The notes under the pieces: model-generated
Told to the model about the DNA's origin: nothing
Database searches by the model: none
Seen by the model: the letters and a program-made list of their open reading frames with translations, nothing else
Shown: one piece after another, positions 2,158 through 64,000 of the stretch
Layout: the number at the start of each line of letters is the position of its first letter
Position numbering within the stretch: the stretch's first letter is position 1
Position numbers and translations under genes: made by a program
Origin: Candidatus Omnitrophota bacterium
Lineage (GTDB): Bacteria > Omnitrophota > JACPQZ01
Length of the DNA stretch: 64,000 bases
Assembly (NCBI GenBank): GCA_016190205.1
Contig: JACPQZ010000076.1
Span: forward strand, 52,167-116,166
Direction: 5' to 3'

Positions 2158-2475
2158 CTGTCCGTGATTCGTGTTTCGTGATTCGTGAAACGTAGTTGAC
2201 GACTTGAGTAACCAGAAACCAGCAACCAGATACCAGAAGATTCCAGAGACCAGATACCAGAGTGATACGATAAAATTCGAAATACGAAACTCGAAGCACG
2301 AAGCAAATTCGAATGACCGAAATTCAAAACTCGAAAACGGTTGTTTTGAATTTCTGATTTCGAATTTCTAACTTGCTTCTAATTTCGATCTTCGAATTTC
2401 GTATTTTTTCTGGTTACTGGTATCTGGTATCTGGTTTCTTTTTTTCACGATTCACGATCAACGATCCACGAACCT
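2158..2475. repeat. Heptamer array spacer, three families nested as one palindrome
   Basis: Three 7-nt families are arranged in mirror order. GTGATTC words (2163-2190) pair with CACGATT/CACGATC words (2445-2475); ACCAGAT/ACCAGAA words (2210-2263) pair with TCTGGTA words (2404-2442); CGAAATT-type words (2270-2335) pair with their complements (2341-2402). The first 98 bp recur at 63910-64000. It fills the gap between lpxI and the activator gene and touches the lpxI 3' end. Confidence 0.9.
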
Positions 2476-3289
2476 ACACTGCGACAATGCACACTCCCCG
2501 GGTGTCGGCTTCACAAAGCACCCGCTCACGTTCCAGGATGAGGGTCTCACCCGCCTCAATGGCGAGGACGCCTGTTTGGGCGTCGGCGAGCGCCTGAACT
2601 GTCTTTAGACCGATACAGGGAACATCAAATCGCACATCCTGTTTCGCCTTGCTTACCTTGACGATAACGATCCCCGGGCCCGCCACCTGAAAGGCGCGGC
2701 GGATCATGTCATCCGTTCCCTCCATGGCCTCCACCGCGACCACGGCCTTGGCCTTTACAGCCACTGCCTGTCCGACATCCAGGGCAGAGACCTTTTTGGC
2801 CAACTCGAACCCAAAGCGGATGTCCGCTTCCTGCTCCGGTGATGGGTTTCTCCGCGTCAAAACCCCCCTCGATGGGATGAGATCGCTCAAGTACGTCTTT
2901 GAGCTCAAGAGGGTAAGGCCCTTCCTGGCCAGATATTTGGCGACAGCCTTGAGCAGGGTGTCCGCCCGCTTATCCGGCGCCGTAGCCAAGATGAAGGCGA
3001 GGGCCGGATCGGGTTTAAAACCTGAAAAGAGTTTTTTATGTTTTATCTGCCCGGCCATCACAACATCCGTGACCCCCTCGGACTTCAAATATTCTGTCAG
3101 GCGTTCGAGATCCGTGACCTCGATCCAGTGTACCTTGTCTGCGAGCTCCTCGATGCCGCTCTCGGTCTCACCCCGCACAGCGACCGCCACCACCCGATGG
3201 CCGCGCTCCCGCGCCTTGCCCGCAAAAATCAGCGGGTATTGGCCGTTTCCGGCGATCAAACCGATCGTTTTAGGAGCTACTTTTTGCAT
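2474..3289 (-). CDS. lpxI: UDP-2,3-diacylglucosamine pyrophosphatase LpxI (DUF1009 family)
   Basis: A 271-residue protein of the LpxI family, which hydrolyses UDP-2,3-diacylglucosamine to lipid X and UMP in lipid A synthesis and replaces LpxH. The N-terminal half (about 7-130) starts with IGLIAGNGQYPLIFA and includes VVMAGQIKHKKLF; the C-terminal half (about 135-271) holds GLTLLSSKTYLSDLIPSRG, EGTDDMIRR and CIGLKTVQALADA, all typical of the family. It is the last gene of the run bamA-ompH-lpxD-lpxC/fabZ-lpxA-lpxI, which fits its role. The spacer to lpxA holds a heptamer hairpin. Confidence 0.9.
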   Translation of the reverse strand: MQKVAPKTIGLIAGNGQYPLIFAGKARERGHRVVAVAVRGETESGIEELADKVHWIEVTDLERLTEYLKSEGVTDVVMAGQIKHKKLFSGFKPDPALAFILATAPDKRADTLLKAVAKYLARKGLTLLSSKTYLSDLIPSRGVLTRRNPSPEQEADIRFGFELAKKVSALDVGQAVAVKAKAVVAVEAMEGTDDMIRRAFQVAGPGIVIVKVSKAKQDVRFDVPCIGLKTVQALADAQTGVLAIEAGETLILERERVLCEADTRGVCIVAV

Positions 3290-3375
3290 GCGTGTGTGAT
3301 TCGGGATCCGGGAAGCGGGAACAGGGAACCGCCACCGCTTCCCGCTTCCCGTTTCCCGGTTCCCGAACCGTCGTT
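3290..3375. repeat. Heptamer array hairpin, GGGAAGC family
   Basis: GGGAAGC/GGGAACA words (about 3309-3332) face the complementary CTTCCCG/TTTCCCG words (about 3339-3368) across a few bases, giving a hairpin with about 25 bp arms in the lpxA-lpxI spacer. The same family occurs at 13940-14020 and 40200-40235. Confidence 0.85.
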
Positions 3376-4164
3376 TTACTTTGTTATTCCCCGCTCGGAC
3401 TCTCGGATGAAGCGGACGAGGTGGGTCAATTCGGGGTACGAAGCGAGCTCTTTTTCGATGCGGGCAAGCGCTTGCGTGACCGCTAAATCAGAACGGTACA
3501 GGAGCCGGTGAGCCTTTTTGAGTTCATCTCGACAACGGGGCTCCAAACCAGCGCGCTCGAGACCCAGCCGGTTGATGCCAAAGACCTTCACCGGGTGGCC
3601 ATCGGCCATCATAAAGGGGGGGATATCCTTGACCAGTTTGGAAAAGCCCCCGATGATGGAAAGGCGCCCCACGCGCACGAACTGATGGATTCCGACCATT
3701 CCGCCCACGATGGCCTGGGATTCTATCGTGACATGCCCCCCCATGGTAACCGCATTGGCAATAATAACGCCGTCTTCGATCCTGCAATCATGGGCGATAT
3801 GGGCGTAGGCCATGATGAGATTCCGGTCCCCGATAAACGTCTCGCTTTCTTCGCCCGTGGCCGTATGCACGGTGACATATTCCCGGACCGTGTTTTGGTC
3901 TCCGATTCTTACGCGCGTGACCCCGCCCCTGTATTTGAGGTCCTGGGAGCGGGTCCCGATGACCGCACCCGGGTAGATCTCACAGCGCTCGCCGATTTCC
4001 GTATAGCCGTCCAGGACCACGTGCGACATCAGGCGGGTCCCCGGCCCTATCGTGACGTGTTCCCCAACCACGCAGTAGGGACCTACGTCGACACCTTCGC
4101 CTATCTGGGCCTTGGGATGGACACACGCGGTGGGGTGAATCTGGACCGTATAATTCGTTGCCAT
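3376..4164 (-). CDS. lpxA: UDP-N-acetylglucosamine O-acyltransferase LpxA
   Basis: A 262-residue acyl-ACP-dependent transferase for the first step of lipid A synthesis, adding a hydroxyacyl chain to the 3-OH of UDP-GlcNAc. The first 190 residues form left-handed beta-helix hexapeptide repeats starting HPTACVHPKAQIGEGVDVGP. The motif IMAYAHIAHDCRIED contains the catalytic His. A C-terminal helical part of about 70 residues follows, as in typical LpxA, and the length is normal. It sits 12 bp downstream of lpxC-fabZ, probably in the same transcript. Confidence 0.93.
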   Translation of the reverse strand: MATNYTVQIHPTACVHPKAQIGEGVDVGPYCVVGEHVTIGPGTRLMSHVVLDGYTEIGERCEIYPGAVIGTRSQDLKYRGGVTRVRIGDQNTVREYVTVHTATGEESETFIGDRNLIMAYAHIAHDCRIEDGVIIANAVTMGGHVTIESQAIVGGMVGIHQFVRVGRLSIIGGFSKLVKDIPPFMMADGHPVKVFGINRLGLERAGLEPRCRDELKKAHRLLYRSDLAVTQALARIEKELASYPELTHLVRFIRESERGITK

Positions 4165-4176
4165 GGACTTGGGTTT

Positions 4177-5493
4177 TTAGGCATCCACCAGGCTGAACAT
4201 GAGTCTCGCCTCCGCCACCACCTTATTCCCGACCTTGGCCACACCCTCGGTCAGCGTGGTGCGAGACTTAATCTTCAAGACGTTCACTTCCAGGATAAGC
4301 TCATCCCCCGGGAGTACCGTCCTCCTGAACTTCGCCCGCTCGATGCTCATGAAATACGCAATCTTCTTTAAGTTCTCCTGGCGCGAGAGCATGAGGATCC
4401 CGCTCACCTGCGCCAAGGCCTCTACGATCAAGACGCCCGGCATGACCGGATGGCCCGGAAAATGGCCGCCGAAATAGGCTTCGTCCGCTAGCACATGCTT
4501 GACCCCAACTGCCCGCTTGTTGGGAATAAACTCAACCACCTCGTCGACAAAGAGAAAAGGTTGGCGATGAGGAATAATGCGCTCGATCTCTGTCTGTCCC
4601 ATCACTGTTCCTTCAGAGAGAGGTTCCTGTACCACACTGGCGACCCCGGCGGCGCCGTCGCGCACGGCCTGCCGTTTGATTCGCTGGATGAGCGCAATAT
4701 TGAGAGAGTGTCCGCTCCTCACGGCGATGACATGACCCTTTAGATGCATCCCCAGGAGATACAAATCCCCGATGAGATCCAGGATTTTATGCCGCACAAA
4801 TTCATCCTGAAAGCGCAGCTCGTTGCGGATCACCCCCTCCGGGCCCACCACCAGGGTATTGTCGAAATCAGCCCCCTTCCCTAGGCCCTTTTCCCTTAAA
4901 AGCTGTCCTTCCGACTCCGTGCAGAACGTGCGGGCGGGCGCGATCTGGTTCACGAAGACGTCGTCCTTCAAGGTAAAGCTCGCGAATTGCGATTTCATTT
5001 CGGGGTGATCGAACATATAGCTCACCTTGAACGCATCATGCGGCAGAACGACAATGCTGGCATCTTGTTCCTGGATGTAAATCGGCTCTCGAACGGCGTA
5101 GACCTTGCGAGGCGCCTCCTGCTCCTGGTAACCGGCCTTGGCAAGCACCTGGGTAAATCCGAGCGCGCTTCCGTCCAGCCCGGGGAGTTCCTCCCCGTCT
5201 ATCTCAATGATGATATTGTCAATCCGCAGTCCCACCAGGCACGCCATGAGATGCTCGATGGTGTGCACCTCATAGGAGTTCACGCCCACGGAAGAGCGGC
5301 GCGGCCTCTTATTGAGGTCGATCACATGGTAGATTTCGGCGGGGATGGAAGGTTTTTCAGGAAGGTCAGACCGGACGAAACGAACGCCCGACTGCGGGGG
5401 GGCTGGCTTGAAAACGCAGTTGACCGTCTTGCCTGTGTGCAGGCCGACCCCGGAGAGCCTAGCCGGCTTTTTTATTGTCCGCTGAGACTCCAC
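4177..5493 (-). CDS. lpxC/fabZ: Bifunctional LpxC deacetylase - FabZ dehydratase fusion
   Basis: A 438-residue fusion. Residues 1-290 are LpxC, the zinc-dependent UDP-3-O-acyl-GlcNAc deacetylase that commits the cell to lipid A synthesis: HTIEHLMA (77-84), HKILDLIGD (235-243) and SGHSLN (260-265) carry the zinc and catalytic residues. Residues 300-438 are FabZ, the 3-hydroxyacyl-ACP dehydratase: [12 protein letters not shown] (308-319) and [11 protein letters not shown] (343-353), with the catalytic Glu in VEALAQ. The frame is open further upstream, but I chose the GTG at 5491-5493 because it follows GGAGAG at good spacing and the protein then begins like LpxC. It overlaps the end of lpxD by 35 nt. 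The fusion is known in Bacteroidetes and PVC-type bacteria. Confidence 0.93.
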
Positions 5494-6523
5494 CGAGCTT
5501 TCTCTCCAGACGTGCCACCTTGTCTTCCAAGGTGGAAAAAGACTTGAACATCTCGGGAAGCTTGGCCATGCAGGCGAAGATCCTCTTGGCCCGGTTAAAG
5601 GGCTTGGCCGGCTGGCCAAGGACACAGGCATTGTCGGGAACGGATTTGGTCACCCCGCTCTGTGCTGCGATGGTGACATTATCTCCGATGGTGATATGCC
5701 CCACGATGCCCGCCTGACCCGCCATCACCACGCCGTTTCCGACCGTAGTGCTCCCGCTGATACCGCACTGCGCGACGATGATGGAGTGCTCTCCAATCGT
5801 CACGTTATGCGCGATTTGAACCAGATTGTCAATCTTCGTCCCCCTCCCGATAAAGGTGGTGCCGAAACGGGCGCGATCAATCGTCACGTTGGAACCGATC
5901 TCCACGTCGTCGGAGAGAACCACGTTGCCGATTTGGGGGATCTTGTGATGCACGCCCTTGACCGTAGCAAAACCGAATCCGTCGCTCCCGATCACAGAGC
6001 CGGAATGAATGATGACGCGCGCCCCGATCTCGACATATTCCCGGATCGAGACGTTCGGATAAATCACCGTTGCCTTACCGATCTTGGTGTGGTGGCCCAC
6101 GTACACCCCCGCATACAGGATGACGTCATCGGCAATCTCGGCATAGTCATCCACTACCACGTAGGGCTGCATGGCTACGTTCTTCCCCAGCTTGACATGC
6201 TGGCCCAGAACTGCCGTCGAATGAATGCCCTTAGGCGTCACGGTCTCATTGGGAGCCAAGAGCGTGACGATGCGCGCAAAGGCAAGTGATGGATTTTCCG
6301 CGCGGATCAGGGAATGGTTGGGGATCGGCTCGAGATCTTCAGAAACAATGATGGCGGAGGCCTGCGTCGTATCGGCCAGGGGGACGTATTTGGGATTGGC
6401 CAGGAACGTGATATCCCCTTCCGAGGCTTCTTTAATACCGCTCACGCCCGTAATCACCGTATTGGGATCGCCGTCCACGCGGCCCCCGACGATTCGGGCG
6501 AGCTCCGAGAGGGTCTTTTTCAC
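5459..6523 (-). CDS. lpxD: UDP-3-O-acylglucosamine N-acyltransferase LpxD
   Basis: A 354-residue enzyme adding the second acyl chain to the deacetylated glucosamine of the lipid A precursor. It has an N-terminal uridine-binding domain (1-100), a long left-handed beta-helix (about 103-310), and a C-terminal helical tail. The motif [12 protein letters not shown] (233-244) carries the expected catalytic His at 239. Length and architecture are normal. The start overlaps the ompH-like stop by 4 nt, so the two are probably translationally coupled. Confidence 0.94.
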
Positions 6524-7047
6524 TGGACCCTCCTCTGGTACTGGTCATTCAAGATCGTAAGAATCTCATTCGTGACATCTACCTCGCCGCTGGAATACAC
6601 GAGGGCCCGGCCATGGAAGATAATATCATACCCCTTGCTCTTGCCGTACGAATCGATGACCGCTTGAATCTCGGTCAGGATATCCTTGACCAGATTGTCG
6701 CGGCGCGACCGCAATTCCTCGCGCGCCTTGCGGTCAAACTCCTGGAGTTCCTTGATCTTGGCATCGATATCCTGCTGCTTGCCTTGGCGGTTGTCTTGGG
6801 CCAGGAGCTCCAGCTCGTCCTTCAAGCGGCGCACCTCTTGAACCACCTTATCGCGCTCCTTCTGCTTGGCCTGGCCTTCCTGCTCCAGATCGGCGTCGGC
6901 CTCCTGGGTCCTCTTATAATCGTCAAAGAGCTTGGCAATATCCACGTATCCCATCTTGAGCCCGTCCTCGCGGGCATCGGCATGAGAGGGCGGCGCCAGG
7001 GTCCCGCAGGCCGTAAGGAGAATGACTGTCATCATTTTGAAACGCAT
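6520..7047 (-). CDS. Periplasmic chaperone of the OmpH/Skp family
   Basis: A 175-residue OmpH-family protein. Residues 1-24 form a signal peptide with a hydrophobic [15 protein letters not shown] stretch. The mature part starts with the family motif [18 protein letters not shown], continues as a charged coiled coil (about 50-120), and ends with the second conserved strand, [16 protein letters not shown]. Skp escorts unfolded outer-membrane proteins to BamA, whose gene is directly upstream. A Cys in the signal region (TACG) leaves open a lipoprotein form. Confidence 0.88.
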
Positions 7048-7061
7048 CTCACACCTCCGTG

Positions 7062-10842: not shown

Positions 10843-10929
10843 AGTAACCTCTATCAGCTTTCAGCTTTCAGCTATCAGCTATTAGCTATCAGCTTTCAGC
10901 TAACGGCTGAAGGCTGAAGGCTGACTTCG
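10843..10929. repeat. Heptamer array hairpin, CAGCTTT/CAGCTAT family
   Basis: Seven units such as CAGCTTT and CAGCTAT run without a break (10860-10905), followed by the complement as GGCTGAA units (10905-10923). The result is a hairpin filling the whole rplI-dnaB spacer. Confidence 0.9.
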
Positions 10930-11373: not shown

Positions 11374-11511
11374 AACAAACCTCTACGATCGTTCTTCGTT
11401 CATCGTTCTTCGTTCTTCGTTCTTCGTTCGACAACCCGGGTATTTGACATGGATTTCATTTTTTTGCTGTTACGAAGCACGATGCACGATGAACGAAGCA
11501 CGTCGTGCCAT
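11374..11511. repeat. Heptamer array hairpin, TTCGTTC / CGAAGCA family
   Basis: TTCGTTC units (11392-11428) are answered by complementary ACGAAGC/ACGATGC units (11473-11503) across about 45 bp of unrelated T-rich sequence. The same family is found at 60115-60235 and 61725-61803. Confidence 0.88.
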
Positions 11512-13901: not shown

Positions 13902-14026
13902 ACACTGCCCCTCTATGACTTTCGCGGGATTCGCGTTTCGTGATTCGGGAATCGGGAACAGGGAATCAAAACCTTTTTTCAGCGGTACCCGCTTCCCGGT
14001 TCCCTGTTCCCGTGTCCCGGACACGG
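13902..14026. repeat. Heptamer array hairpin, TCGGGAA / TTCCCGG family
   Basis: TCGTGAT/TCGGGAA/CAGGGAA words (about 13935-13968) are answered by CTTCCCG/GTTCCCT words (about 13991-14020) across a short T-rich loop. It fills the prs-rplY spacer. Confidence 0.85.
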
Positions 14027-17397: not shown

Positions 17398-17564
17398 CTT
17401 ACTTCCTCAAATAGCTGCTTCGGTTATCGGTGTTCGGTGATCGGTTATCGCAAGAAAAAGCAATATGCCGGGTCTTCGGCTTTCAGCCGTCGGCCATCAG
17501 CCTTCGGCTTTCAGCTGACGGCCGACAGCGCGTGCGATTACCGACAAAGAGCGAAAAAACCTCC
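17398..17564. repeat. Heptamer array, nested CGGTTAT and TTCAGCC families
   Basis: CGGTTAT/CGGTGTT units (17420-17450) form the outer layer, answered only briefly near 17532 (GCGATTACCGAC). The inner layer has CTTTCAG/CCATCAG-type units followed by complementary CTGACGG units (17480-17525). It lies upstream of clpX. It may also contain a clpX promoter that I cannot recognise. Confidence 0.8.
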
Positions 17565-18072: not shown

Positions 18073-18310
18073 GTTTTGCGTACCGGCATTGCATAACCTT
18101 TGTCCGGTTATCGGTGTTCGGTGATCGGTTATCGCAAGCGTCGTAAGCTATCAGCTGTCAGCCTTCAGCCATCAGCTATCTGCTTTCAGCTGACGGCTGA
18201 CGGCTGAAAGCAGAAAGCCCGTTCTATTTCTTTTCTTGCAATAACCGATCAACGATGACCGATCAACGGATTGCGATCACCGATGACCGATTCCCGAACC
18301 GGTGGCTTTT
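18073..18310. repeat. Heptamer array spacer, two families nested
   Basis: Outer layer CGGTTAT/CGGTGTT (18110-18137) pairs with CGATAAC-type CGATCAA/CGATGAC words (18240-18297). Inner layer CAGCTGT/CAGCCTT words (18150-18187) pair with CAGCTGACGGCTGACGG-type words (18188-18215). The core CGTAAGCTATCAGCTGTCAG recurs at 33781, so this is a dispersed copy of the spacer at 33737. Confidence 0.9.
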
Positions 18311-18321
18311 TCGTTGAATAC

Positions 18322-18492
18322 CTGCCCGGCTAGGATTCGGCGCTTTGGGCTCGCAAGGTGGAATCTGAGTCAGCAGCGCGTTTCCTCTTGCTCGCCCAAA
18401 GTCGGCCACTCGCCGCGCCAAGGAATGTCGAGCTCGCTATTCGCTCGCTCGACTTTGTTTTGGGCGGCGCGGCTCACTTTCGAATCCTAGCC
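18322..18492. repeat. Palindromic element with tRNA-derived ends
   Basis: The left end repeats 18 bp of the neighbouring tRNA-Gln 3' part (18322-18339 equals 18515-18532). The right end (18481-18492) is the inverted complement of 18328-18339, giving 12 bp terminal inverted repeats. Inside are two GC-rich hairpins: one with TTTGGGC / GCCCAAA arms (about 18343-18402) and one with CGCCGC / GGCGGCG outer and GTCGAGC / GCTCGAC inner arms (about 18411-18467). No gene. It is similar in style to the palindromes after rplQ. Confidence 0.75.
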
Positions 18493-18514
18493 TTGGATAC
18501 AACTCTAAGAAACA

Positions 18515-18585
18515 CTGCCCGGCTAGGATTCGAACCTAGAATATCGGCTCCAAAGGCCGGTGTGTTACCATTACACTACCGGGCA
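18515..18585 (-). tRNA. tRNA-Gln (anticodon TTG)
   Basis: The minus strand folds as a full cloverleaf: acceptor TGCCCGG / CCGGGCA, D arm GTGT-AATGGTA-ACAC, anticodon loop CTTTGGA with anticodon TTG, T arm CTAGG-TTCGAAT-CCTAG. The U1-A72 pair and discriminator G73 are typical of bacterial tRNA-Gln. CCA is not encoded. One mismatch (27-43) tops the anticodon stem. It reads Gln CAA codons and sits between spoVG and the palindromic element. Confidence 0.9.
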
Positions 18586-21485: not shown

Positions 21486-21687
21486 ATCCACGGCTAGCCT
21501 ATCACCCCTGCTCCTTCTTGCTTCTTCCTCCGTCTCTCGGCAGACCGTGAACTGTGGACTGTAGACAGCGGACAGTGGACCGTGGACCGTGGACTGTGGA
21601 CGCACAACGCACAACGCACCACGCACCACGCACGACGGGGGATTTTCGGCATGCGATCCCCGATCCCCGATCCCCGATCCCCGCACG
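21405..21687. repeat. Chain of heptamer arrays (GTACTGC, GTCGACA, GTGGACT, CGCACAA, CCCGATC)
   Basis: Five families follow one another: TACTGCG (21413-21441), GTCGACA (21443-21471), GTGGACT/GTGGACC (21546-21600), CGCACAA/CGCACCA (21600-21637) and CCCGATC (21657-21683). Unlike most spacers it is a chain, not a closed palindrome. It spans the hisG-TPR gene junction and overlaps the probable TPR start. Confidence 0.85.
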
Positions 21688-23767: not shown

Positions 23768-23994
23768 GGCACCTCGTTCGTACTGCGTACTGCGTCGTGC
23801 GTACTGCGTAACGTCTGGGCGAGCAGGATTCGTACAGCGTTAGGCATGCGACGATTAGCGTAGAGCGTAGAGCGTATAGCGTAGAGGAAAGGGTTTTACT
23901 CTATACGCTATCCGCTATCCGCTATCCGCTATCCGCTAAACGCTATCCGCTAAACGCTTCACGTTCCACGCTGTACGCAGTACGCTGTACGATC
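23768..23994. repeat. Heptamer array spacer, two families nested; copy shared with the rplC spacer
   Basis: Outer TACTGCG words (23780-23806) pair with GTACGCA/GTACGCT words (23966-23991). Inner TAGAGCG words (23856-23885) pair with CGCTATC/CGCTAAA words (23905-23958). The 63 bp at 23778-23840 are identical to 59581-59643, including a non-repetitive core, and both copies sit 10-13 bp from a start codon. Confidence 0.92.
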
Positions 23995-33736: not shown

Positions 33737-33950
33737 CGATGTTGGTCGCTCGTCGTTCGGTTATCGTTGATCGCAAGCGCCGTAAGCTATCAGCTGTCAG
33801 CCTTCAGCCATCAGCAAAAGCTGGAGAAAATAGCTGACGGCCGAAGGCAGAAAGCCCATAATATTTCTTTTCTTGCGATAACCGATCACCGATAACCGAT
33901 CACCGAATTGCGATAACCGATCACCGATGACCGATCAACGATCCCCGAAC
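33737..33950. repeat. Heptamer array spacer, two families nested
   Basis: Outer CGGTTAT/CGTTGAT words (33756-33775) pair with CGATAAC/CGATCAC words (33877-33942). Inner CAGCTGT/CAGCCTT words (33789-33815) pair with GCTGACGGCCGAAGG (33831-33845). The spacer reaches into the 3' end of the upstream gene: the last residues FGDR and the TGA are array sequence. A related copy lies at 18105-18300. Confidence 0.9.
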
Positions 33951-35662: not shown

Positions 35663-35809
35663 ATCAATCAGTCGCTAGTAACTGGTCGCTAGTCGCTGGC
35701 GAATGTTCTTCACGAGAGACTGTTAGCAAACCTCTAGCGACCAGCGACCAGCGACCCGCATCTGCTTTTTTGCTAGCGACCAGCGACCAGCGACCAGCAA
35801 CGAGAGGCA
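35663..35809. repeat. Heptamer array hairpin, TAGTCGC / CAGCGAC family
   Basis: CAGTCGCTAGTAACTGGTCG-type words (35668-35700) are answered by AGCGACC words in two blocks (35734-35757 and 35775-35800). The family also fills spacers at 51492, 55773, 56347 and 57591. Confidence 0.88.
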
Positions 35810-39226: not shown

Positions 39227-40368
39227 TTGATCGAAATAAATGCCTCTTCTTTAAGTTCATTCACCCATGTCCGGAAGGCCGCAGAGAATTTTTCCTGGTA
39301 GAGCGCGTTCTCAATCTCATCGTTAACTTCTTGAAACGCAGGCAGGGATGCCTCCTGTCTCACATCCACCCTGAAGAAGTGGTAGCCCACGCGGGACTCG
39401 ACGGGGCCCGAAATTTCGCTCACCTTCAAAGAAAAGAGGGTCTTGTCAATCTCTTCCACCATTTCCCCCCGGGAAACGAACCCTAAGTCCCCGCCCTCGT
39501 CGCGGTTGGGGCCTTCGGAATACTGCTTGCAGACTTCCTCGAAGGGGGTCCCTTGCTCAAGAAGAGCGCGCACGCGCTCCAGTTTTTCAAGGACGAGGTC
39601 CTGACCCTCCACCGTTGCCTCGTCCTCCGCCTCCCCAAGGCCATCGCCGGCCGGGGCCTCATCTTCGGGGCGCGCCTTGCGTATGAGGATCATCCTGGCT
39701 CTAACCTTCTCCGGCGTCTTAAAATCGTCCGCATGAGCACTATAGTAATCTTGTATCTCCTTGGGAGATACGATGATACGAGATCTGACCTCCATTCCGA
39801 TAAGCTGCTGAATCAGGTGCTGGTCCCTGTACTTTTGCCTCAATTCTTCCAGCGAGAGCCCCTGCTCGCTCACAGCCTGATGGAAGGCTTCCTCCGATTC
39901 GAATTTTCCAATGACCTCGCGGACGCGCTCCTCCACCTGCTCGGCGCTCGCCTCGAGTCCCTTTTCACGCGCCCTCTGCAGAATGAGGTGATCCTCGATG
40001 ATCTGCCCCAGAATATCCCTGCGTGCCTCGGAGATCTTTCGCACAAGCCCTTCTCCCTGATAAACCGTCTGATACTGCGCGACAATGGGATTCAGGCGCT
40101 CCATGAGCTCGCTCTGCGTGACGATGTCTTCGTTGACGACCGCGACAATCCTGTCGACTACCTCTGCCACCGCTATAGATATAACAGGACGGAACCATGA
40201 TTCGGGAAGCGGGAAGCGGGAAGCGGGAAGCGAAAGAAACCAGATACCAGAAACCAGCAACCAGAAGAAACCAGTTACCAGAAACCAGAGATGGGGCGAA
40301 CGGATCTTTTTCTGGTATCTGGTATCTGGTATCCTCTGGTATCTGGTTACTGGTTTCTGGTTACTCAT
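39223..40368 (-). CDS. surA: SurA-like periplasmic peptidyl-prolyl isomerase, signal peptide encoded by a heptamer array
   Basis: A 381-residue chaperone. From residue 69 it is a normal SurA-type protein: EVVDRIVAVVNEDIVTQSEL, a SurA_N helical domain (to about 190) and one parvulin PPIase domain (about 225-345, EGPNRDEGGDLGFVSRGEM and SRVGYHFFRVD). Residues 1-62 are encoded entirely by ACCAGAT and GGGAAGC heptamer arrays, which give a basic start (VTRYQRIPDTRYQKKIR) and a hydrophobic run (LWFLVTGFFWLLVSGIWFL) ending LPAS, a plausible Sec signal. The ATG at 40366-40368 overlaps the mfd stop in ATGAGTAA. No other in-frame start lies nearer except a GTG that would leave no signal. Confidence 0.85.
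   Translation of the reverse strand: MSNQKPVTRYQRIPDTRYQKKIRSPHLWFLVTGFFWLLVSGIWFLSLPASRFPLPESWFRPVISIAVAEVVDRIVAVVNEDIVTQSELMERLNPIVAQYQTVYQGEGLVRKISEARRDILGQIIEDHLILQRAREKGLEASAEQVEERVREVIGKFESEEAFHQAVSEQGLSLEELRQKYRDQHLIQQLIGMEVRSRIIVSPKEIQDYYSAHADDFKTPEKVRARMILIRKARPEDEAPAGDGLGEAEDEATVEGQDLVLEKLERVRALLEQGTPFEEVCKQYSEGPNRDEGGDLGFVSRGEMVEEIDKTLFSLKVSEISGPVESRVGYHFFRVDVRQEASLPAFQEVNDEIENALYQEKFSAAFRTWVNELKEEAFISIK
40198..40368. repeat. Heptamer array palindrome lying inside the surA-like coding start
   Basis: GGGAAGC words (40205-40234), ACCAGAT/ACCAGAA words (40239-40290), a short centre, then TCTGGTA/TCTGGTT words (40314-40363). The ACCAGAT and TCTGGTA arrays are complements, so they form a hairpin of about 50 bp arms. 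The region is open in the surA frame. Confidence 0.9.
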
Positions 40369-42271: not shown

Positions 42272-42306
42272 GTCAACCCACTTTTACGTCGGGCCGATTT
42301 AAGCAG

Positions 42307-42531
42307 AGAACGCCCGGCCCGGCCCCTCGGGCCGCCTGCGGGCCGATCTCAAGCATCCAGGATACTGCACCCGGGGCCGGCACCCTTCTCCGCGAAACGT
42401 TCGCGCCCCAGCGAGGCGCTCACTCTGCATTTTTTGTGCACCGCAGCCCTCTTAAGCGAGCGGGCGGACCGTGCTGCACAAAAAATGAGGTTCGCTCCGA
42501 AGGGCGCCGCCCCCGGCTGCGATCGGCCCGC
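42307..42531. repeat. Large palindrome C
   Basis: Nested arms: GCGGGCCGATC (42338-42348) with GATCGGCCCGC (42521-42531); an imperfect GCACCCGGGGCCGGC-type arm (42367-42388) with its complement (about 42498-42519); and a perfect 13 bp pair CATTTTTTGTGCA (42428-42440) and TGCACAAAAAATG (42475-42487). The left flank, from 42307, repeats the outer arm of palindrome B (AGAACGCCCGGC). Confidence 0.75.
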
Positions 42532-42560
42532 TGGCCCCAGGGGTCGGATGACAGAAATTG

Positions 42561-46332: not shown

Positions 46333-46640
46333 AATACTCCTTCGTATCTCGTATCTCGTGAAGCGTATTTCGCAAACCATTTGCCGCAAGATAACAATAG
46401 CCGCTGGCAGCTCGTGTCGTGTGCCGTGAATCGTGGATCGTGATTCGAAAGTGTTCAAATCCGAATCTCGAAATGCGAAGCACGAACAAATCTGAAGCGC
46501 GAAATTCGAAATTCAAAACCAGCCGTTTCGAATTTCGGACTTCATCTCATCGCTGGTTTCTTTTTTGCGATTCACGATCCACGAATCACAATTAACGAGA
46601 TGGCGCTTCACGCTTCACGAACGACGAGCGACGAACAAAT
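46333..46640. repeat. Heptamer array spacer, three layers
   Basis: 308 bp between infA and rpmJ with no gene. Layers in mirror order: TCGTATC/TCGTGAA words (46338-46362) with CACGCTT/CACGAAC words (46608-46635); CGTGAAT/CGTGGAT words (46410-46445) with ATCCACG/AATCACG words (46568-46598); CGAATCT/CGAAATG words (46461-46512) with TTTCGAATTTCGG (46527-46540). Confidence 0.82.
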
Positions 46641-50940: not shown

Positions 50941-50954
50941 ATGGACAGACCTTT

Positions 50955-51491: not shown

Positions 51492-51744
51492 GATTTCTAC
51501 TCTTAAAGCTTTACGCTTGTCGCTAGTCGCTAGATGCTAGTCGCTAGCAGAAAAGCAGTCGCTAGTGACTGGTCGCTAGCAAGAGTCGATAGACCACAGT
51601 CCATAGTCCACAAGCCAAACCGTGGACTGTTGACCGTGGACTGAGGACTACAGGCGCCCAGCGACTTTTTTCTTGCCAGCGACTGGCGACCAGCGACTTT
51701 TTTCTTGCCAGCGACTGGCGACCAGCGACTAGCGACTAAACCTG
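51492..51744. repeat. Heptamer array spacer, two families nested
   Basis: Outer TAGTCGC words (51516-51580) pair with CAGCGAC/TAGCGAC words (51658-51737). Inner GTCCATA/GTCCACA words (51587-51615) pair with GTGGACT words (51621-51645). One block of the outer right arm is duplicated (51659-51690 and 51691-51725). It lies between rpsH and rplF, inside the ribosomal operon. Confidence 0.92.
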
Positions 51745-52146: not shown

Positions 52147-52251
52147 TCTATCCTCTCAATCGAAACGCTTGTCGTGAGTCTTGTGTGATGGGTGGTGAGG
52201 CTTGTCATTCCTTATTCACCACACACCACTCATCACTCACCACCGACGTAG
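52147..52251. repeat. Heptamer array hairpin, GTGAGTC / CACTCAT family
   Basis: GTCGTGAGTCTTGTGTGATG (52168-52187) pairs with CACACCACTCATCACTCACC (52223-52242). It fills the rpsN-rpsH gap. Confidence 0.87.
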
Positions 52252-52437: not shown

Positions 52438-52537
52438 TTTTTACTCCTCAATTACCGCGTCGGTCGTGAGTCTTGTGTGATGTGTGGCGAGCCTCGTCTT
52501 TCTAACTCACTACTCACCACTCATCACTCACGACTCA
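52438..52537. repeat. Heptamer array hairpin, GTGAGTC / CACTCAT family
   Basis: GTCGTGAGTCTTGTGTGATG (52464-52483) is the same 20 bp as at 52168, followed by CACTCAT/CACTCAC words (52512-52543). It lies in the rplE-rpsN gap and reaches the rplE stop. Confidence 0.87.
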
Positions 52538-53810: not shown

Positions 53811-53987
53811 TTTCCGTCCTGCATTACATGCCCGTACTGCGTACTGCGTACAGCGTACTGCGTCATAGTCTAGTCACCAGGTTTACAGCCATTCGGCTCA
53901 TTTGCCCGTACTGCGTACAACGTACCGCGTGAAGAATCAGAATGGTTTTTCTTTCGCTGTACGCACGACGCTGTACGCTGTACGAAC
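53811..53987. repeat. Heptamer array hairpin, GTACTGC / GTACGCT family
   Basis: TACTGCG words in two blocks (53834-53865 and 53909-53932) are answered by CTGTACG/CTGTACG-type words (53958-53987). It lies between rpsQ and rplN. Confidence 0.87.
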
Positions 53988-54426: not shown

Positions 54427-54531
54427 AAAAACCTCGCTTGTCCCAGGTCCCAAGTCCCAAGTCTCCGACCTTCGGAGCGGAACACGGAACACAAGACCTG
54501 GGACCTGGGACCTGGGACCTGGGACATGGAA
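54427..54531. repeat. Heptamer array hairpin, GTCCCAA / CTGGGAC family
   Basis: GTCCCAG/GTCCCAA words (54438-54462), a small CTCCGACCTTCGGAG hairpin (54462-54476), then five CTGGGAC words (54498-54530). It is the rplP-rpmC spacer and touches the rplP 3' end. Confidence 0.88.
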
Positions 54532-54945: not shown

Positions 54946-54950
54946 GATTT

Positions 54951-55772: not shown

Positions 55773-55908
55773 CATCAACCTCTATAAACTTTTGCTTGTC
55801 GCTTGTAGTCCACAGTCCGCAGTCGACAGTCCACGGATTGGCTTGTGGACTATGGACTGTGGTCTGTCGACTCATGCTAGCGACCAGCGACTAGCGACTG
55901 AAATCTTT
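55773..55908. repeat. Heptamer array spacer, two families nested
   Basis: Outer TTGTCGC (55795-55808) pairs with AGCGACC/AGCGACT (55878-55900). Inner GTCCACA/GTCGACA words (55808-55836) pair with GTGGACT/ATGGACT words (55845-55873). It is the rplV-rpsC gap. Confidence 0.88.
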
Positions 55909-56346: not shown

Positions 56347-56477
56347 GTGTGTAGCTACTCCTGTCGCTAGTCGCTAGCAAAATAGGACCGTTCATAACGA
56401 CTGACGAAGTTTTTGTTTGCCAGCGACTGGCGACCAGCGACTGCTTTTTGCCAGCGACTGGCGACCAGCAACTGACG
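56347..56477. repeat. Heptamer array hairpin, GTCGCTA / CAGCGAC family
   Basis: GTCGCTAGTCGCTAGC (56364-56379) pairs with CAGCGACTGGCGACCAGCGA in two blocks (56421-56440, 56452-56471). The loop (56380-56418) resembles that of the spacer at 57591, so the two are related copies. Confidence 0.88.
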
Positions 56478-58077: not shown

Positions 58078-58740
58078 TCACTCACGACTCATCACGGCCG
58101 CTGTTCTTCCGTTCCATAAGAGCCTCTGCGTCACCATCCCCAGGGCCTCTCTTGAAAAAACGCACTGATCGTGAGATGCGACATCCTGCGCGGTCAAATC
58201 CTGGGCCGTCCGCGTATCGAGCCCGGGTACGTTGCGCCCGCAGCGTTCCACAGCCCTGTCCCTCGTCTCGATCACAAGGAGCGGCTTTGAGGTTGCTCCC
58301 AAACGCTTGAGCCCCTCCAGGAGCTCCTTCGTTTTAGCCTTTTCCAGGCCCACCCGGTCAACGATGATCAGTTTTTCCTGGCCGATTTTCTGGTTCAAGA
58401 CAGAGCGCAGGGCGCCCAGGCGCATCTTGCGGGGCAGGTGATACCTGATCGTCTTGGGATGCGGTCCGAATACGGTCCCTCCGCCTTTCCAGTGCGGCGC
58501 GCGAATCGAAGAGGTGCGGGCCCTGCCCGTTCCTTTCTGCCGCCATGGCTTGCGGCCGCCTCCCCGTACCTCCCCGAAGGTGCGGGTGGAAGCGGTAAAG
58601 GCGCGCCGATTCTGCCCGTAAGACCACAGCACCTCGTGGACCAGGGCGGGATTCAACTTTCCGTCAAAGACCTTGAGATCCAGAGGGGCCTCGCCCACTT
58701 TCTTCGCCTGCTTCCAGTCCAGTATAGGTAATCCAGCCAC
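58078..58740 (-). CDS. rplD: 50S ribosomal protein L4
   Basis: A 220-residue L4: LNPALVHEVLWSYGQNRRAF, GGGRKPWRQKGTGRARTSSI, HPKTIRYHLPRKMRLGALRS. The last residues come from the flanking CATCACT array (VMSRE). Confidence 0.95.
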   Translation of the reverse strand: MAGLPILDWKQAKKVGEAPLDLKVFDGKLNPALVHEVLWSYGQNRRAFTASTRTFGEVRGGGRKPWRQKGTGRARTSSIRAPHWKGGGTVFGPHPKTIRYHLPRKMRLGALRSVLNQKIGQEKLIIVDRVGLEKAKTKELLEGLKRLGATSKPLLVIETRDRAVERCGRNVPGLDTRTAQDLTAQDVASHDQCVFSREALGMVTQRLLWNGRTAAVMSRE

Positions 58741-58859
58741 TTTATCCCTCTAAAAACTTGCCCGTCGCTCGTTGATCGGTTATCGTTGATCGCAAGCCGA
58801 TACCTATGCTTTTTTTCTTGCGATCACCGATGACCGATGACCGATAACCGATCCACGAA
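58741..58859. repeat. Heptamer array hairpin, CGGTTAT / CGATAAC family
   Basis: GATCGGTTATCGTTGATCGC (58773-58792) pairs with GCGATCACCGATGACCGATG and the following words (58820-58851) across a T-rich loop. The same family occurs at 17398, 18073 and 33737. Confidence 0.9.
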
Positions 58860-59567
58860 TCATTGTTTCTTAACCCGCGCTTTGGCCTTTAGTTTCTTGG
58901 CGACCTGCTCAATACGTTCTTTACGGCGCGGCCGCTTGAGCGCCTTTTCGATCACCAGGTACTCGTTGCGCGGACCCGGAACTTGACCCTTGACGATAAG
59001 AAGATTCTTGTCAACCATGACATCCACCACTTCCACGTTTTCAACCGTTCGGACGCGGTGACCCATATGCCCCGGCATGTGATGCCCCGGGAACACGCGC
59101 GACGGAAAAGAGCTCGCACCGATAGAACCCGGCCGGCGGTGCGTCATGGAACCGTGGGTCTCATCCCCGCCTCTCCAATTCCAGCGGCGGACCCCCCCCT
59201 GGAAACCTTTGCCGATGGTAGTGCCCGTCACATCCACGCACTCGCCCGCGCTAAACCGGTCCACCTTCACCGGCTGGCCCTGGGCGTATGAATTCCGCTC
59301 CTCCTGTGACTTGATCTTGAATTCCCGGACAAAGCGCCGCGGCGCGACCGCCGCCTTCTTATACTCCCCCAGCTGGGGCTTGGGCGTCCGCTTCTCTTTG
59401 GCGCTCCCGAACCCCATGATCACCGCCTCGTACCCATCGGCTTCTTGGGTCTTAAAGCGAATCACGTCGCAGGGTCCGGCCTCGATAACCGTCACCGGCA
59501 CGCGCTCGCCGGAGGGGTCGTAGACCTGGGTCATACCTAACTTCTTACCTAGAATGCCTATAGCCAT
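58860..59567 (-). CDS. rplC: 50S ribosomal protein L3
   Basis: A 235-residue L3: MAIGILGKKLGMTQVYDPSG, GTTIGKGFQGGVRRWNWRGG, SIGASSFPSRVFPGHHMPGH. The ATG at 59565-59567 gives the family start; the frame is open upstream only through array sequence. The tail is basic. Confidence 0.96.
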   Translation of the reverse strand: MAIGILGKKLGMTQVYDPSGERVPVTVIEAGPCDVIRFKTQEADGYEAVIMGFGSAKEKRTPKPQLGEYKKAAVAPRRFVREFKIKSQEERNSYAQGQPVKVDRFSAGECVDVTGTTIGKGFQGGVRRWNWRGGDETHGSMTHRRPGSIGASSFPSRVFPGHHMPGHMGHRVRTVENVEVVDVMVDKNLLIVKGQVPGPRNEYLVIEKALKRPRRKERIEQVAKKLKAKARVKKQ

Positions 59568-59756
59568 GAAGAGACCTTGCTCGTACTGCGTACTGCGTCG
59601 TGCGTACTGCGTAACGTCTGGGCGAGCAGGATTCGTACAGCGTACAGCGTCGTGCGTACAGCGAACGAAAACCCATTCTCTACTTTCACGCAGTACGCCG
59701 TACGCAGTACGCTGTACGCTGTACGCGGTACGCTGTACGTAACCTGCAGCCAACGA
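59568..59756. repeat. Heptamer array hairpin, GTACTGC family; copy of the larC spacer
   Basis: TACTGCG words (59584-59610) and CGTACAG words (59633-59665) are answered by CAGTACG/CTGTACG words (59695-59742). Positions 59581-59643 are identical to 23778-23840. It separates rpsJ from rplC. Confidence 0.92.
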
Positions 59757-60086
59757 TCATGTCTTAATCTCCACATCCACGCCCGCCGGAAGATCGAGCT
59801 TCATGAGCGCATCCACCGTCTTTGCCGTAGGATTCATAATATCGATCAGGCGCTTATGCGTTTTGATCTGAAACTGATCCCGCGACTTTTTGTCGATCAC
59901 AGGACTGCGCAATACGGTATAGTCTTCCCGCTTGGTCGGAAGAGGGATCGGCCCCGATACCAGCGCGCCGGTCCTCAAGGCCGTGCTTACAATTTCAGCC
60001 GCAGACTTATCCAAGATGCGGTGGTCGTAGGCCCTGAGCCTGATCCTTACCTTCTGTTTCGCTTTAACAGGCGCTGTGGTTGTCAT
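59757..60086 (-). CDS. rpsJ: 30S ribosomal protein S10
   Basis: A 109-residue S10: [60 protein letters not shown]. About eight extra residues at the N-terminus. First gene of the S10 part of the cluster. Confidence 0.96.
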
Positions 60087-60245
60087 CTTTCACCCTCTTA
60101 GCGAGCCCGGTCCGTGCTTCGTTCTTCGTTCTTCGTGCTTCGTGCTTCGTGCGTCGTGCGTCCCACAGACTGCCGGGTAACGAGTGAGGGGATCTTTTTT
60201 AGCTGTTACGAAGCACGAGGCACGCGGCACGAAGCACGCCCTGTG
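60087..60245. repeat. Heptamer array hairpin, TTCGTGC / CGAAGCA family
   Basis: TTCGTTC/TTCGTGC words (60119-60162) are answered by ACGAAGC/ACGAGGC words (60207-60238) across about 45 bp. The loop end (TTTTTTAGCTGTTACGAAGC) resembles that at 11460-11480, so the two are related copies. Confidence 0.88.
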
Positions 60246-60398
60246 CTATTTATGCTCCTTGTGCTCAGTATGCTTCCGGCAGAACGGGCAATATTTCGAG
60301 CGCACCAATCGATCGGTATGCGTTTTCCGATTCTTGCGGGTTGTATAATTGCGCCGGCTGCAAACGCCGCACGCCATCGTTATAACCTCTGCCGCCAT
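60246..60398 (-). CDS. rpmG: 50S ribosomal protein L33, zinc type
   Basis: A 50-residue L33: after a short start ([13 protein letters not shown]) it reads [20 protein letters not shown] and [17 protein letters not shown]. The two CxxC pairs (residues 10-13 and 37-40) form the zinc site. Its place between tuf and rpsJ is unusual; it is more often found with secE-nusG. Confidence 0.93.
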
Positions 60399-60511
60399 CT
60401 TTCACTCTCTAAGCTTGCACGGTTCGTACTGCGTCTTGCGTCGTGCGTACTGCGAAAGAAAAACCATTCTCGTCCTTCACGCTGTACGCAGTACGCAGTA
60501 CGCTGTACGCT
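60399..60511. repeat. Heptamer array hairpin, GTACTGC family
   Basis: TACTGCG/TCTTGCG words (60426-60453) face CTGTACG/CAGTACG words (60480-60509), filling the tuf-rpmG gap and touching the tuf stop. Confidence 0.88.
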
Positions 60512-61699
60512 TCACGCGATGATTTCACTGACTACCCCGGCCCCCACGGTGTGGCCGCCTTCGCGGATGGCGAAGCGCACTTCCTTTTCCATGGCGATGG
60601 GGGCGATGAGCTCGATCTCGAGGTCGATGTTGTCCCCCGGCATGACCATCTCGACCCCTTTGGGAAGGGTGGCCACCCCGGTCACATCCGTCGTGCGGAA
60701 ATAGAACTGGGGCCGGTAGCCTGAAAAGAAGGGGGTGTGCCGGCCGCCTTCCTCCTTGGTGAGACAATAGACCTTGGCCTTAAACTTGGTGTGGGGGGTA
60801 ATCGTCCCGGGATGGGCCAAGACCTGTCCGCGCTGGAGGTCCTTTTTGTCGGTGCCCCGTAAGAGGACCCCCACGTTGTCCCCGGCCTGGCCTTCATCGA
60901 GGAGCTTGCGGAACATCTCGATGCCCGTGACGACCGTCTTTTTGGTGGGGGCGAGCCCCACGATCTCGATCTCTTCATTGAGTTTCACCTTTCCCCGCTC
61001 GATTCTCCCGGTGCCCACGGTGCCCCGTCCGGTGATGGAGAAGACGTCTTCCACCGGCATGAGAAAGGGCTTATCCGTCTGCCGCACGGGGGTGGGGACG
61101 TAACTATCGACCTTCTCCATCAGGGCCTCAATCCCCTTGCTCGCCTCGGCGTCTCCCTGCATGGCCTTCAAGGCACTTCCCCTTATGATGGGCACGTCCG
61201 AGCCGGGAAACTCGTATTTGGTCAAGAGGTCTCTCACTTCAAGCTCCACCAGATCCAAAAGCTCGGGGTCGTCGACCTGGTCCACCTTGTTTAGGAAGAC
61301 CACGATGGAAGGGACTCCCACCTGACGGGCCAAGAGGATGTGCTCCCGGGTTTGGGGCATGGGGCCGTCGGGGGCACTCACTACCAGAATCGCTCCATCC
61401 ATCTGCGCCGCGCCGGTCACCATGTTTTTGATGTAGTCGGCGTGCCCGGGGCAGTCCACGTGGGCATAGTGGCGTTTGTCGGTCTGGTACTCCACGTGGC
61501 TCACCGCAATCGTGATCCCGCGCTCCTTTTCCTCGGGGGCATTGTCGATGGAATCAAAGCTTCTCACCTCGCACAGGCCCTTCTTCGCCAAAACGGTCGT
61601 GATGGCGCTTGTCAAGGTAGTCTTGCCGTGATCCACATGCCCGATGGTGCCGATATTGATATGGGGTTTGGTGCGCGTGAATTTTTCCTTGGTGGCCAT
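60512..61699 (-). CDS. tuf: Elongation factor Tu
   Basis: A 395-residue EF-Tu, which delivers aminoacyl-tRNA to the ribosome. G1 [14 protein letters not shown], switch region [40 protein letters not shown] and NKVD are intact, and domains 2 and 3 are complete ([18 protein letters not shown]). Codon use looks highly biased, as expected of a very highly expressed gene. Only one copy is in the window. Confidence 0.98.
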
Positions 61700-61824
61700 T
61701 ATTAATCCTCCATGCTAGCTTTCCCCGTGCTTCGTGCCTCGTGCCTCGTGCTTCGTAACGGTTGACGATGAACGAAGCACGATGAACGAAGAACGAAGCA
61801 CGAACACATTATTTATGACTTAAT
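61700..61824. repeat. Heptamer array hairpin, TTCGTGC / CGAAGCA family
   Basis: CTTCGTG/CCTCGTG words (61731-61759) face ACGAAGC/ACGATGA words (61766-61803) with a short loop. It is the fusA-tuf spacer. Confidence 0.88.
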
Positions 61825-63903
61825 CTATGACTTAGCTACGATGACTTTCTCCGAGACATGCTTTGGAACCTCTTGATAATGATGCGGTTCCATGGTGTAA
61901 GTCGCCCGCCCTTGTGTCAGACTCCGGAGCGCTGTGGCATAGCCAAACACCTCGCTCAAGGGCACAAACCCGTCGAGGATCCGCATCTTGCCCCGGTCGC
62001 GCATGTTGGTGACCTGTGCCCTGCGGGAATTAAGGTCCCCGATCACGTCACCCATGTTCTCCTCCGGAGTAATGACCTCAATTTTCATAATGGGTTCCAA
62101 AAGAACGGGGTTCGCCTTCTTCGCCGCCGCTTGAAAGGCAATGGAGCCGGCGATCTTAAACGCGATATCCGAAGAATCGACCTCGTGATAGGAACCGTCC
62201 GTAAGCGTGACGCGGAAATCGATCACCGGGTACCCGGCCAGGGGGCCAGTTCTCAAAGCCTCTTCCACACCTTCCTCCACAGAGGAGATATACTCCTTCG
62301 GGATTCTCCCGCCTGTAATCTTGTCCACGAATTCAAAACCAGACCCCGCCTCCAGCGGCTCGAGTTCGATGTATACATGGCCATACTGGCCGTGTCCCCC
62401 CGTCTGCCGGATGAACTTGCCCTCCTGCTCCACTTTCTTGCGGACGGTTTCTTTGTAGGCCACCTGCGGCTTCCCCACATTGGCATCCACCTTAAACTCC
62501 CGCAGCATGCGGTCTTTCAAGACGTCGAGGTGGAGCTCCCCCATCCCCGAAATAATGGTCTGGCCGGTCTCACGGTCAGAACGGATCCTGAAGGTCGGAT
62601 CCTCGTCCGCCAGGCGGCTTAAGGCTACCGAGAGCTTATCCTGATCCGCCTTGGTCTTGGGCTCGATGGCCATGCTGATCACGGGGTCCGGAAAGTTCAT
62701 TGACTCCAGAACGATCGGATGGTCTTCATCCGAGAGGGTATCGCCTGTCTTTACATCCTTGAGCCCCACGCAGGCCACGATGTCGCCCGCGAAGGCCTCC
62801 GGATAGTCCTCGCGCTTGTTCGCATGCATGAGGAGCAGCCGGTTGATCCGCTCCCTGCTGTTTTTCGTCGCGTTATACACGTAAGACCCCGACTTAAGCA
62901 TCCCTGAATAAACCCGCACGTACGTGAGCTTCCCCACAAAAGGATCGGCTGAAATCTTAAAGGCCAGCCCGCTGAATGGTTCATCGTCACTGGGCTTGCG
63001 CTTGTCGGCCCCGTTTTGGGAACCCGGCCGCGTTCCTTCCACCGCCGTGATGTCGCTGGGCGCGGGGAGGTAATCCACCACGGCATCCAGAAGGGGCTGA
63101 ACCCCCTTGTTTTTAAATGACGATCCGCAGAGGACGGGCACCACCTGGCTTTGAACAGTCTGCCTGCGCAGGGAAGCTGCGATTTCTTCAATGCTCGGCT
63201 TTTTATCTTCGATATAATATTCCATCATACGCTCATCATGCTCGGCCAGACGCTCTATGAGATCGTGATGCGCCTTTTCGGCCTCCTTTTTAAACTCGGC
63301 CGGGATTTCGATCACGTCATATTGGGCACCTAGGGTCTCATCGTGATAAATGAGGGCCCTCATCCGCACGAGATCAATGACGCCCTTGTGCTGGTCTTCG
63401 ACCCCCAATGGAATCTGGATGGGCACGGCATTCGACCCCAGGCGGTCCCGCATCTCCTCCACCGCCTTCCAAAAGTTGGCCTCGATGCGGTCCATCTTGT
63501 TCACAAACGCAAGGCGCGGCACCTTGTACCGGTCGGCCTGCCTCCAGACGGTCTCGGACTGCGGCTCCACACCACCCACACCGCAAAAGACGCCCACCGC
63601 TCCATCCAGGACCCTTAGGGAGCGCTCCACCTCCATCGTAAAATCTACGTGGCCGGGCGTATCGATGATGTTGATGCGGTGCTCGCGCCAAAAACAGGTC
63701 GTGGCGGCAGAGGTAATCGTGATCCCGCGCTCCTGCTCCTGCACCATCCAGTCCATGGTGGCGGTCCCGTCATGGACCTCACCCATCCGGTGCAGCTTCC
63801 CCGTGTAATAGAGAATGCGCTCCGTGGTCGTGGTCTTGCCCGCATCGATATGGGCGATGATTCCGATATTTCTCGTTTTCTCTAAGCTATATTGTCGCGG
63901 CAT
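61825..63903 (-). CDS. fusA: Elongation factor G
   Basis: A 692-residue EF-G driving translocation. G1 [20 protein letters not shown], switch 2 [20 protein letters not shown] and NKMDR are present, as are domain IV ([20 protein letters not shown]) and domain V. The ATG at 63901-63903 has only a weak upstream GGA, because a heptamer array begins 6 bp upstream. rpsL and rpsG probably lie beyond the right edge. Confidence 0.98.
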
Positions 63904-64000
63904 ATGACATCCGTGATTCGTGATTCGTGAAACGTAGTTGACGGCTTGAGTAACCAGAAACCAGCAACCAGATACCAGAAGATTCCAGAGACCAGATACC
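63904..64000. repeat. Heptamer arrays GTGATTC and ACCAGAT, second copy of the 2161 spacer
   Basis: 63910-64000 repeats 2161-2258 in the same orientation with one substitution and exactly one 7-nt unit less. The right part of the spacer is outside the window. Confidence 0.92.

Follow-up and report, generated by a model that had tools for sequence, protein, structure and literature searches.

Heptad arrays in an Omnitrophota genome

We analyzed 64,000 nucleotides (nt) of contig JACPQZ010000076.1 (assembly GCA_016190205.1, positions 52,167 to 116,166) from a Candidatus Omnitrophota bacterium, hereafter the window, in which degenerate tandem arrays of 7-nt units (heptads) occupy spacers around genes that include rpsD, rpsK, infA, map, secY, rplR, rplE, rplN, rplB, rplD, rplC, tuf, and fusA. 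The window is part of a 76-contig, 1.65 Mb draft genome, whose closest SecY relatives are from Candidatus Omnitrophota (61–69% identity). The evidence presented here makes it probable that these arrays constitute the arms of hairpin-forming, non-coding elements that are dispersed over the genome in the manner of REPINs (repetitive extragenic palindrome (REP) doublets forming hairpins) or miniature inverted-repeat transposable elements (MITEs).

An initial annotation, made from the window alone, had described a 7-nt step in about thirty spacers and proposed autocorrelation and tandem-repeat searches as a check; both agree with that description. Tandem Repeats Finder returned 119 rows for the window, most of them at period 7 or a multiple and nearly all in spacers, ≈28 of which carry arrays. 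Window spacers match themselves at lag 7 with a frequency of 0.361 vs 0.254 expected (z 22), with further peaks at lags 14 and 21, whereas the window genes give no peak (lag-7 z −1.9). Genome-wide lag and array figures cover 1.48 of the 1.65 Mb, and the period spectrum a 1.12 Mb subset. The spacer lag-7 peak is sharp across the 1.48 Mb (z 59.6), where 434 arrays are distributed over 197 of the 625 spacers of ≥40 nt among which array spacers were counted. Segments scoring ≥12 number 262 at period 7, 142 at 14, 46 at 21, and 19 at 28, and Markov shuffles yield none at period 7; other periods are represented by no more than three segments each, except 17 (8), 24 (37), 25 (10), and 29 (4), which mainly correspond to register shifts of 3–4 nt (7n+3) that are clear within ACCAGAA arrays. 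In such arrays (e.g., 2207–2261 and 40235–40361) a 3-nt shift, giving periods 10, 17, and 24, recurs and is kept between copies.

There is a negligible chance that the arrays arose as artefacts in assembling a metagenome bin from short reads. The draft is fragmented and 31 of 130 contig ends carry arrays, compared with 9.5% of random windows, an enrichment that dispersed near-identical repeats would give; however, arrays also lie mid-contig in long contigs, with intact flanking genes and conserved operon order, and comparable arrays are found in independent assemblies, and we rule the artefact out on the basis of the intact operons and independent genomes. The last 97 nt of the window, at the end of its contig (63904–64000), match the beginning of contig C71 (L073:2-98) at 100% identity. 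Judging from this overlap, these contigs are probably neighbors, with the assembly broken inside an element. Contamination was rejected as the cause of array-free contigs, since most array-free stretches do not differ from the rest of the genome in tetranucleotide profile; large genes and accessory regions account for part of these stretches.

Word families, inverted pairing, and folding

The initial annotation had stressed many different words with a fixed unit length. A single unit length does serve all of them, but the words are not free: they cluster into ≈12 families, in each of which the core is fixed and between one and three positions vary (ACCAGWW, CACGAWN, ACGCWGT, TTCGAAN, CGATNAC, CACTCAY, CTWTCAGC, GTCCACA, AGCGACY, GTGCAAW, GGGAANC, and related words). 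ACGCAGT (105) and ACGCTGT (99) are nearly equally frequent, and C or G at the variable position is rare (8).

Arrays of the same family within one spacer form 134 inverted vs 55 direct pairs, compared with a ratio of ≈1:1 for random array pairs, and many of the direct pairs are a single array with an interruption. The word found in the 5′ arm is constant within a family (58/58 pairs in F1, 32/32 in F3, 17/17 in F2, and 9/9 in F5), and tiers with different words are nested in the order A B C…C′ B′ A′, as arms of long hairpins. The median fold z is −3.3 for array spacers vs −0.9 for array-free spacers. A strand or orientation rule (“W first” on both strands) was considered and set aside, as inverted repeats and descent, not transcription direction, explain it.

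Dispersal of whole elements

BLAST matches elsewhere in the genome were obtained for 148 of 155 array spacers vs 76 of 321 array-free spacers. These matches reveal whole elements of 190–330 bp, linkers included, at unrelated sites and in both orientations, with sharp ends; the best copies are 94–99% identical and have unrelated flanks. The elements at L023:11654-11913 and L026:6230-5906, for example, have arms, asymmetric linkers, and loop in common, in opposite orientation and with unrelated flanks, and a 170–190 nt element common to L032 and L060 ends in AGWAACCAG...CTGGTTACT. Terminal inverted repeats are present, as in MITEs of DDE insertion sequences, and the ends read either AGWAACCAG...CTGGTTACT or CGTAC...GTACG; no constant tag, such as the GTAG or CGTC of the conserved 16-mer ends of REPINs, was seen in them (no statistical test). 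Copies also agree in the order of their unit variants, and the arrays were therefore inherited along with the element; taken together, the shared linkers and unit order indicate that the arrays spread by dispersal of whole elements. The recurrence of words in unrelated spacers stands as an observation, but their independent generation spacer by spacer is not supported. A CGAA element at L067:11798-12081 carries a foreign insert of at least ≈100 nt (CCCCGC...GGTGTG) exactly in the loop, between TTCG and CGAAG, and its copy in L032 is uninterrupted.

Elements in ribosomal operons and other gene spacers

The first array base lies a median of 11 nt past a stop codon and the last a median of 31 nt ahead of the next start. 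Among co-directional spacers, arrays occupy 15% in the lowest codon-adaptation quintile vs 52–54% in the two highest (p 2e-8). We compared ribosomal spacer lengths with those of orthologous spacers in 9–29 other Omnitrophota and find that most array-bearing spacers are longer than in relatives, often by 60–380 nt (Table 1), and that array-free junctions are mostly similar; no comparable arrays are found in the same ribosomal spacers of these other Omnitrophota.

These positions and the occupancy gradient, together with strong folding, the lower divergence of array positions relative to linkers (see below), and two compensatory pairs in the CGAA family, are also consistent with functional operon-spacer hairpins under selection for transcript stability, attenuation, or translation coupling, a kind of hairpin function reportedly proposed for REP sequences and bacterial interspersed mosaic elements (BIMEs) and for cyanobacterial short tandemly repeated repetitive (STRR) hairpins. 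We regard this as a somewhat unlikely explanation, although it could coexist with dispersal. Relatives run the same operons without the elements, both orientations occur, several word families are found at the same kind of position, and the two arms of an element complement each other no better than arms swapped between elements. Compensatory arm evolution in this genome was therefore discarded, there being no sign of it; a 13-sequence alignment of the CGAA family contains 16 paired positions, two of which changed on both sides, a slight compensatory signal.

Several observations weigh against the reading as dispersed hairpin elements. Long copies are not numerous for every word family: about one-quarter of the spacers have best matches of 34–41 nt, possibly from word sharing only, and some spacers harbor unpaired arrays (21544–21683, fold z +1.5). 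Some of the gains in spacer length are small, and some array-free spacers are also longer than in relatives. No transposition event, strain empty site, target-site duplication, or autonomous partner was found; specifically, no target-site duplication was seen by eye in the listed flanks of ≈60 elements, with no formal test made. Finally, dispersal alone does not explain the use of a 7-nt unit by every family in the genome.

Unit gain and loss within arms

Indels between copies include 68 unique events of exactly 7 nt vs 41 of 6 nt and 32 of 8 nt, and 81 of 269 gaps of ≥4 nt are multiples of 7 (vs ≈38 expected, an ≈2-fold excess); units are therefore gained and lost within the arms in 7-nt steps. 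Copies diverge less at array positions (6.4%) than in linkers (9.3%), and A–T exchanges make up 43% of array-position substitutions vs 24% in linkers, and both contrasts also hold when the comparison is limited to copy pairs with ≥50 linker bases. One reading of this substitution pattern is constraint on the core with tolerance of A/T exchange. The better conservation of array positions disfavors a structural role for which the period alone would suffice, as the initial annotation had entertained.

The same annotation had preferred a single mechanism copying in 7-nt steps. The excess of 7-nt indels is consistent with this idea, but period-8 ACCAG arrays in other Omnitrophota (see below) are not. 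On this view, a word-free replication or repair process would make heptad arrays de novo in each spacer, with hairpins and shared words being secondary. In its favor are the single period across all word families, the 7-nt indel peak, and a lag-7 excess that is weakly present in other phyla too (among 80 named loci, 48 segments vs one or two at lags 5, 10, and 11), as well as published reports that many bacteria have more heptamers than expected (PMC4692102, PMC4679880). However, it accounts neither for linkers and unit order common to copies nor for inverted pairing and nesting; furthermore, the same core occurs at period 8 in sister genomes, and the same ribosomal spacers are array-free in other Omnitrophota. 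We consider de novo generation unlikely, and a purely word-free process as the main cause is ruled out by the shared linkers and unit order. It has been proposed that ≈7 nt of DNA contact the polymerase, which favors slippage and hence heptamer abundance (reported in PMC4692102 and PMC4679880). This contact length may be the reason for 7 within arms, although it is not obligatory given the period-8 relatives.

If the arrays are indeed arms of dispersed hairpin elements, these elements would move as single-stranded or hairpin DNA, mobilized by an enzyme supplied in trans and leaving no obvious target-site duplication. The arms would grow and shrink through misalignment of neighboring units during replication, and the elements would persist where insertion is tolerated, mostly just past the stop codon between co-directional genes.

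Candidate mobilizing enzymes

The genome encodes four Y1_Tnp proteins, one of which is a clear REP-associated tyrosine transposase (RAYT; L032:10212-11048), and the organization of the elements as extragenic inverted repeats lacking target-site duplication resembles that of REPINs (PMC3116915). It is nevertheless very unlikely that the elements are REPINs that the RAYT or other Y1 transposases of this genome mobilize. The clear RAYT is flanked by a different inverted REP, GGGGTCAGGTCTTGCATTAT, found elsewhere as a REPIN; none of the four Y1 genes lies between inverted heptad arms, one having a single array 64 nt away; and an array-bearing genome (G041, 87% complete) has no Y1_Tnp match. With no linkage to heptad arms for any of the four genes, the Y1/RAYT connection was dropped. 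The ordinary RAYT and its REPIN (GGGGTCAGGTCTTGCATTATCACATT and inverted partner) are located at L032:10150-11075 and L065:1835-1921. No reverse transcriptase match was found. When genes lying between opposite arms were sought, as expected of a parental transposase with the same ends, two candidate intervals emerged; the transposase families were searched in part.

Period 7 and period 8 in other genomes

Of 285 Omnitrophota genomes, 49 contain the ACCAG heptad pattern, a few of them in abundance, and stretches from ACCAG-bearing Omnitrophota show lag-7 arrays with several words. As the reversed heptad pattern is itself a heptad word and not a neutral control, we used the period-8 pattern in its place. 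The ACCAG core gives 97 matches at period 8 and one at period 7 in G009, vs 0 and 178, respectively, in the genome studied here; no period-8 match occurs in G056 or G253, and both periods are present in G145 and G236. From these period-8 ACCAG arrays and the genomes with both periods, we conclude that the period is specific to elements or lineages, 7 being the most frequent, and is not a universal step; for the period-8 genomes, the assessment is based on pattern counts and short loci. The period-8 ACCAG arrays of G009, G041, G167, G280, and G236 (L252–L281) read ACCAGAGC/ACCAGTGC and ACCAGCTG and in several cases have inverted partners nearby, as the octad counterpart of the heptad elements.

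A second family reaches beyond the phylum. The inner CGAA element is 75% identical over 146 nt, loop region included, to dispersed copies in a Syntrophorhabdaceae genome (Desulfobacterota). Among 285 Omnitrophota genomes, 11 contain the CGAA core AATTTGTTTMGTGCTTCG (≤20 copies); in Desulfobacterota it occurs sporadically, in 18 of 395 genomes (≤16 copies), with the reversed control giving 0 in both. The simplest reading of these sequence similarities is that the element came to be common to the two phyla via horizontal transfer, although neither donor nor direction can be named. The Syntrophorhabdaceae loci (L289–L296) contain dispersed CGAA foldback copies that are ≈75% identical to those of the genome studied here, and the Syntrophorhabdaceae genome also harbors AGCTATGAGCC heptads. 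Viral contigs were considered as well; their seven CGAA-core matches are chance matches, none in a heptad context.

It is possible, and we suggest only tentatively, that these elements represent a class of mobile hairpin DNA found across phyla, in which the arms would be short-period tandem arrays (7 nt, or 8 nt in some relatives) that combine a fixed core with A/T-degenerate positions, moved by an enzyme that reads hairpin structure and period instead of any single sequence, such that many words coexist in one genome.

Relationship to known repeats

Cyanobacterial STRR repeats, the precedent cited in the initial annotation, usually consist of 7-bp units between genes and some can form hairpins (PMC2670836). 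The likeness lies in tandem 7-nt units in spacers, but the host here is an Omnitrophota bacterium and not a filamentous cyanobacterium, and few STRR words are described, whereas here ≈12 word families form nested inverted arms of dispersed elements of 100–330 bp. As a precedent STRR is also too narrow, since Xanthomonas (GGGAATC) and Beggiatoaceae (TAACTGA) likewise have many tandem copies of a 7-nt unit, mainly in spacers (PMC4692102, PMC4679880). Those studies give essentially one word per genome, rarely inverted, and the roles proposed for these heptamers (G-quadruplex, translation) do not fit the words found here. REPINs are similarly extragenic, inverted-repeat, non-autonomous, dispersed, and hairpin-forming, with no obvious target-site duplication (PMC3116915); the arms described here differ in being degenerate tandem heptads, longer and nested, and the heptad repeat flanks no RAYT in a genome that has a separate, ordinary REPIN family. 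BIMEs and MITE-like repeats such as ERIC and NEMIS also form mosaics of inverted units downstream of genes and within operons, but lack the 7-nt periodic arms, and for the elements described here no target-site duplication was seen and no parental insertion sequence identified.

Heptamer repeats are thus known from several bacteria, but no explanation has united them; in the genome studied here they are probably dispersed foldback elements, with even ribosomal-protein operons among the places invaded and one family common to Omnitrophota and Desulfobacterota. The question “why 7?” becomes testable, as sister genomes that carry the ACCAG core at period 8 permit direct comparison and the copy-to-copy 7-nt indels provide a mutational signature.

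Catalogue of elements in the window

Table 1. Heptad elements and arrays of the window. Spacer lengths are followed by the median in relatives; paired words are inverted arms.
Position	Arrays and setting	Fold	Copies	Spacer (nt)
2163–2471	three-tier nested foldback between genes: CGTGATT, ACCAGAA, CGAAATN, loop, complements in reverse order	−130.2 kcal/mol, z −11.4 (2158–2475)	≈94% identical at L073:7-332; close copy at L054:9396-9127	
3298–3365	GGGAANC / GCTTCCC	z −5.0		
10851–10924	CTATCAG, then GGCTGAA (inverted)	z −5.9		
11389–11502	TCGTTCT / ACGAAGC			
13930–14019	TCGGGAA / CGGTTCC	z −4.2		
17420–17529	GGTTATC array and GGCTTTCAGCC arrays		≈78–80% at window 18105 and L071:16057	
18105–18297	nested: GGTTATC / CGATAAC outer, CAGCTAT / GGCTGA inner arms		84% over 182 nt to 33755–33934	
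21544–21683	GTGGACT, ACGCACA, CGATCCC: three adjacent unpaired arrays	z +1.5, no hairpin		
23779–23991	nested: CGTACTG / ACGCWGT outer, AGCGTAG / CGCTATC inner		88% over 220 nt to L079:7953-7734	
33755–33934	second copy of nested GGTTATC/CAGCTAT type	z −8.1		
35670–35804	GTCGCTA / AGCGACC			
40203–40361	GGGAAGC array, then ACCAGAA / TCTGGTA foldback, ends AGAAACCAG...CTGGTTACT	z −10.7		
46413–46634	nested CGTGAAT, CGAAATN and complements, just downstream of infA		84% over 198 nt to L026:3753-3569	438 (179)
51502–51738	nested: GTCGCTA outer, GTCCACA inner arms	z −11.4		253 (26)
52217–52243	CACTCAY array, complement nearby			
52463–52537	second CACTCAY foldback, adjoining rplE		85% over 73 nt to 52171–52243	100 (overlap of 32)
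53833–53984	CGTACTG / ACGCTGT, adjoining rplN		86% over 161 nt to L018	177 (18.5)
54440–54529	GTCCCAA / GACCTGG			
55794–55900	GTCCACA / TGTGGAC inner, AGCGACT outer arm		89% over 107 nt to 51662–51556, opposite orientation	
56363–56474	GTCGCTA / CCAGCGA with 31-nt tandem duplication		91% over 65 nt to 51666–51730	
58762–58852	GGTTATC / CGATAAC foldback, rplC–rplD spacer	−39 kcal/mol, z −4.3		119 (41)
59582–59739	CGTACTG / ACGCWGT, upstream of rplC		91% over 159 nt to L054:7598-7756, unrelated flanks	189 (48)
60113–60509	two elements downstream of tuf: CGTGCTT / ACGAAGC, CGTACTG / ACGCTGT			425 (47)
61726–61804	CGTGCTT / ACGAAGA foldback between fusA and tuf	z −5.8		
63904–64000	left part of CGTGATT–ACCAGAA nested element, cut by contig end			

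Of the Rfam families only tRNA-Gln matched in the window, and the elements correspond to no described RNA family. An 18-nt stretch from the 3′ end of this tRNA-Gln (18322–18339) is repeated at ≈18514–18531, ≈190 nt apart, in a manner that looks like an attachment-site duplication; the two 18-nt repeats flank a heptad-free dispersed repeat (18333–18487) with ≈81% copies in L075, L067, and L071. Finally, the GC-rich spacer at 42272–42557 contains a non-heptad inverted repeat, GCATTTTTTGTGCACCGC ... GTGCTGCACAAAAAATGAG.

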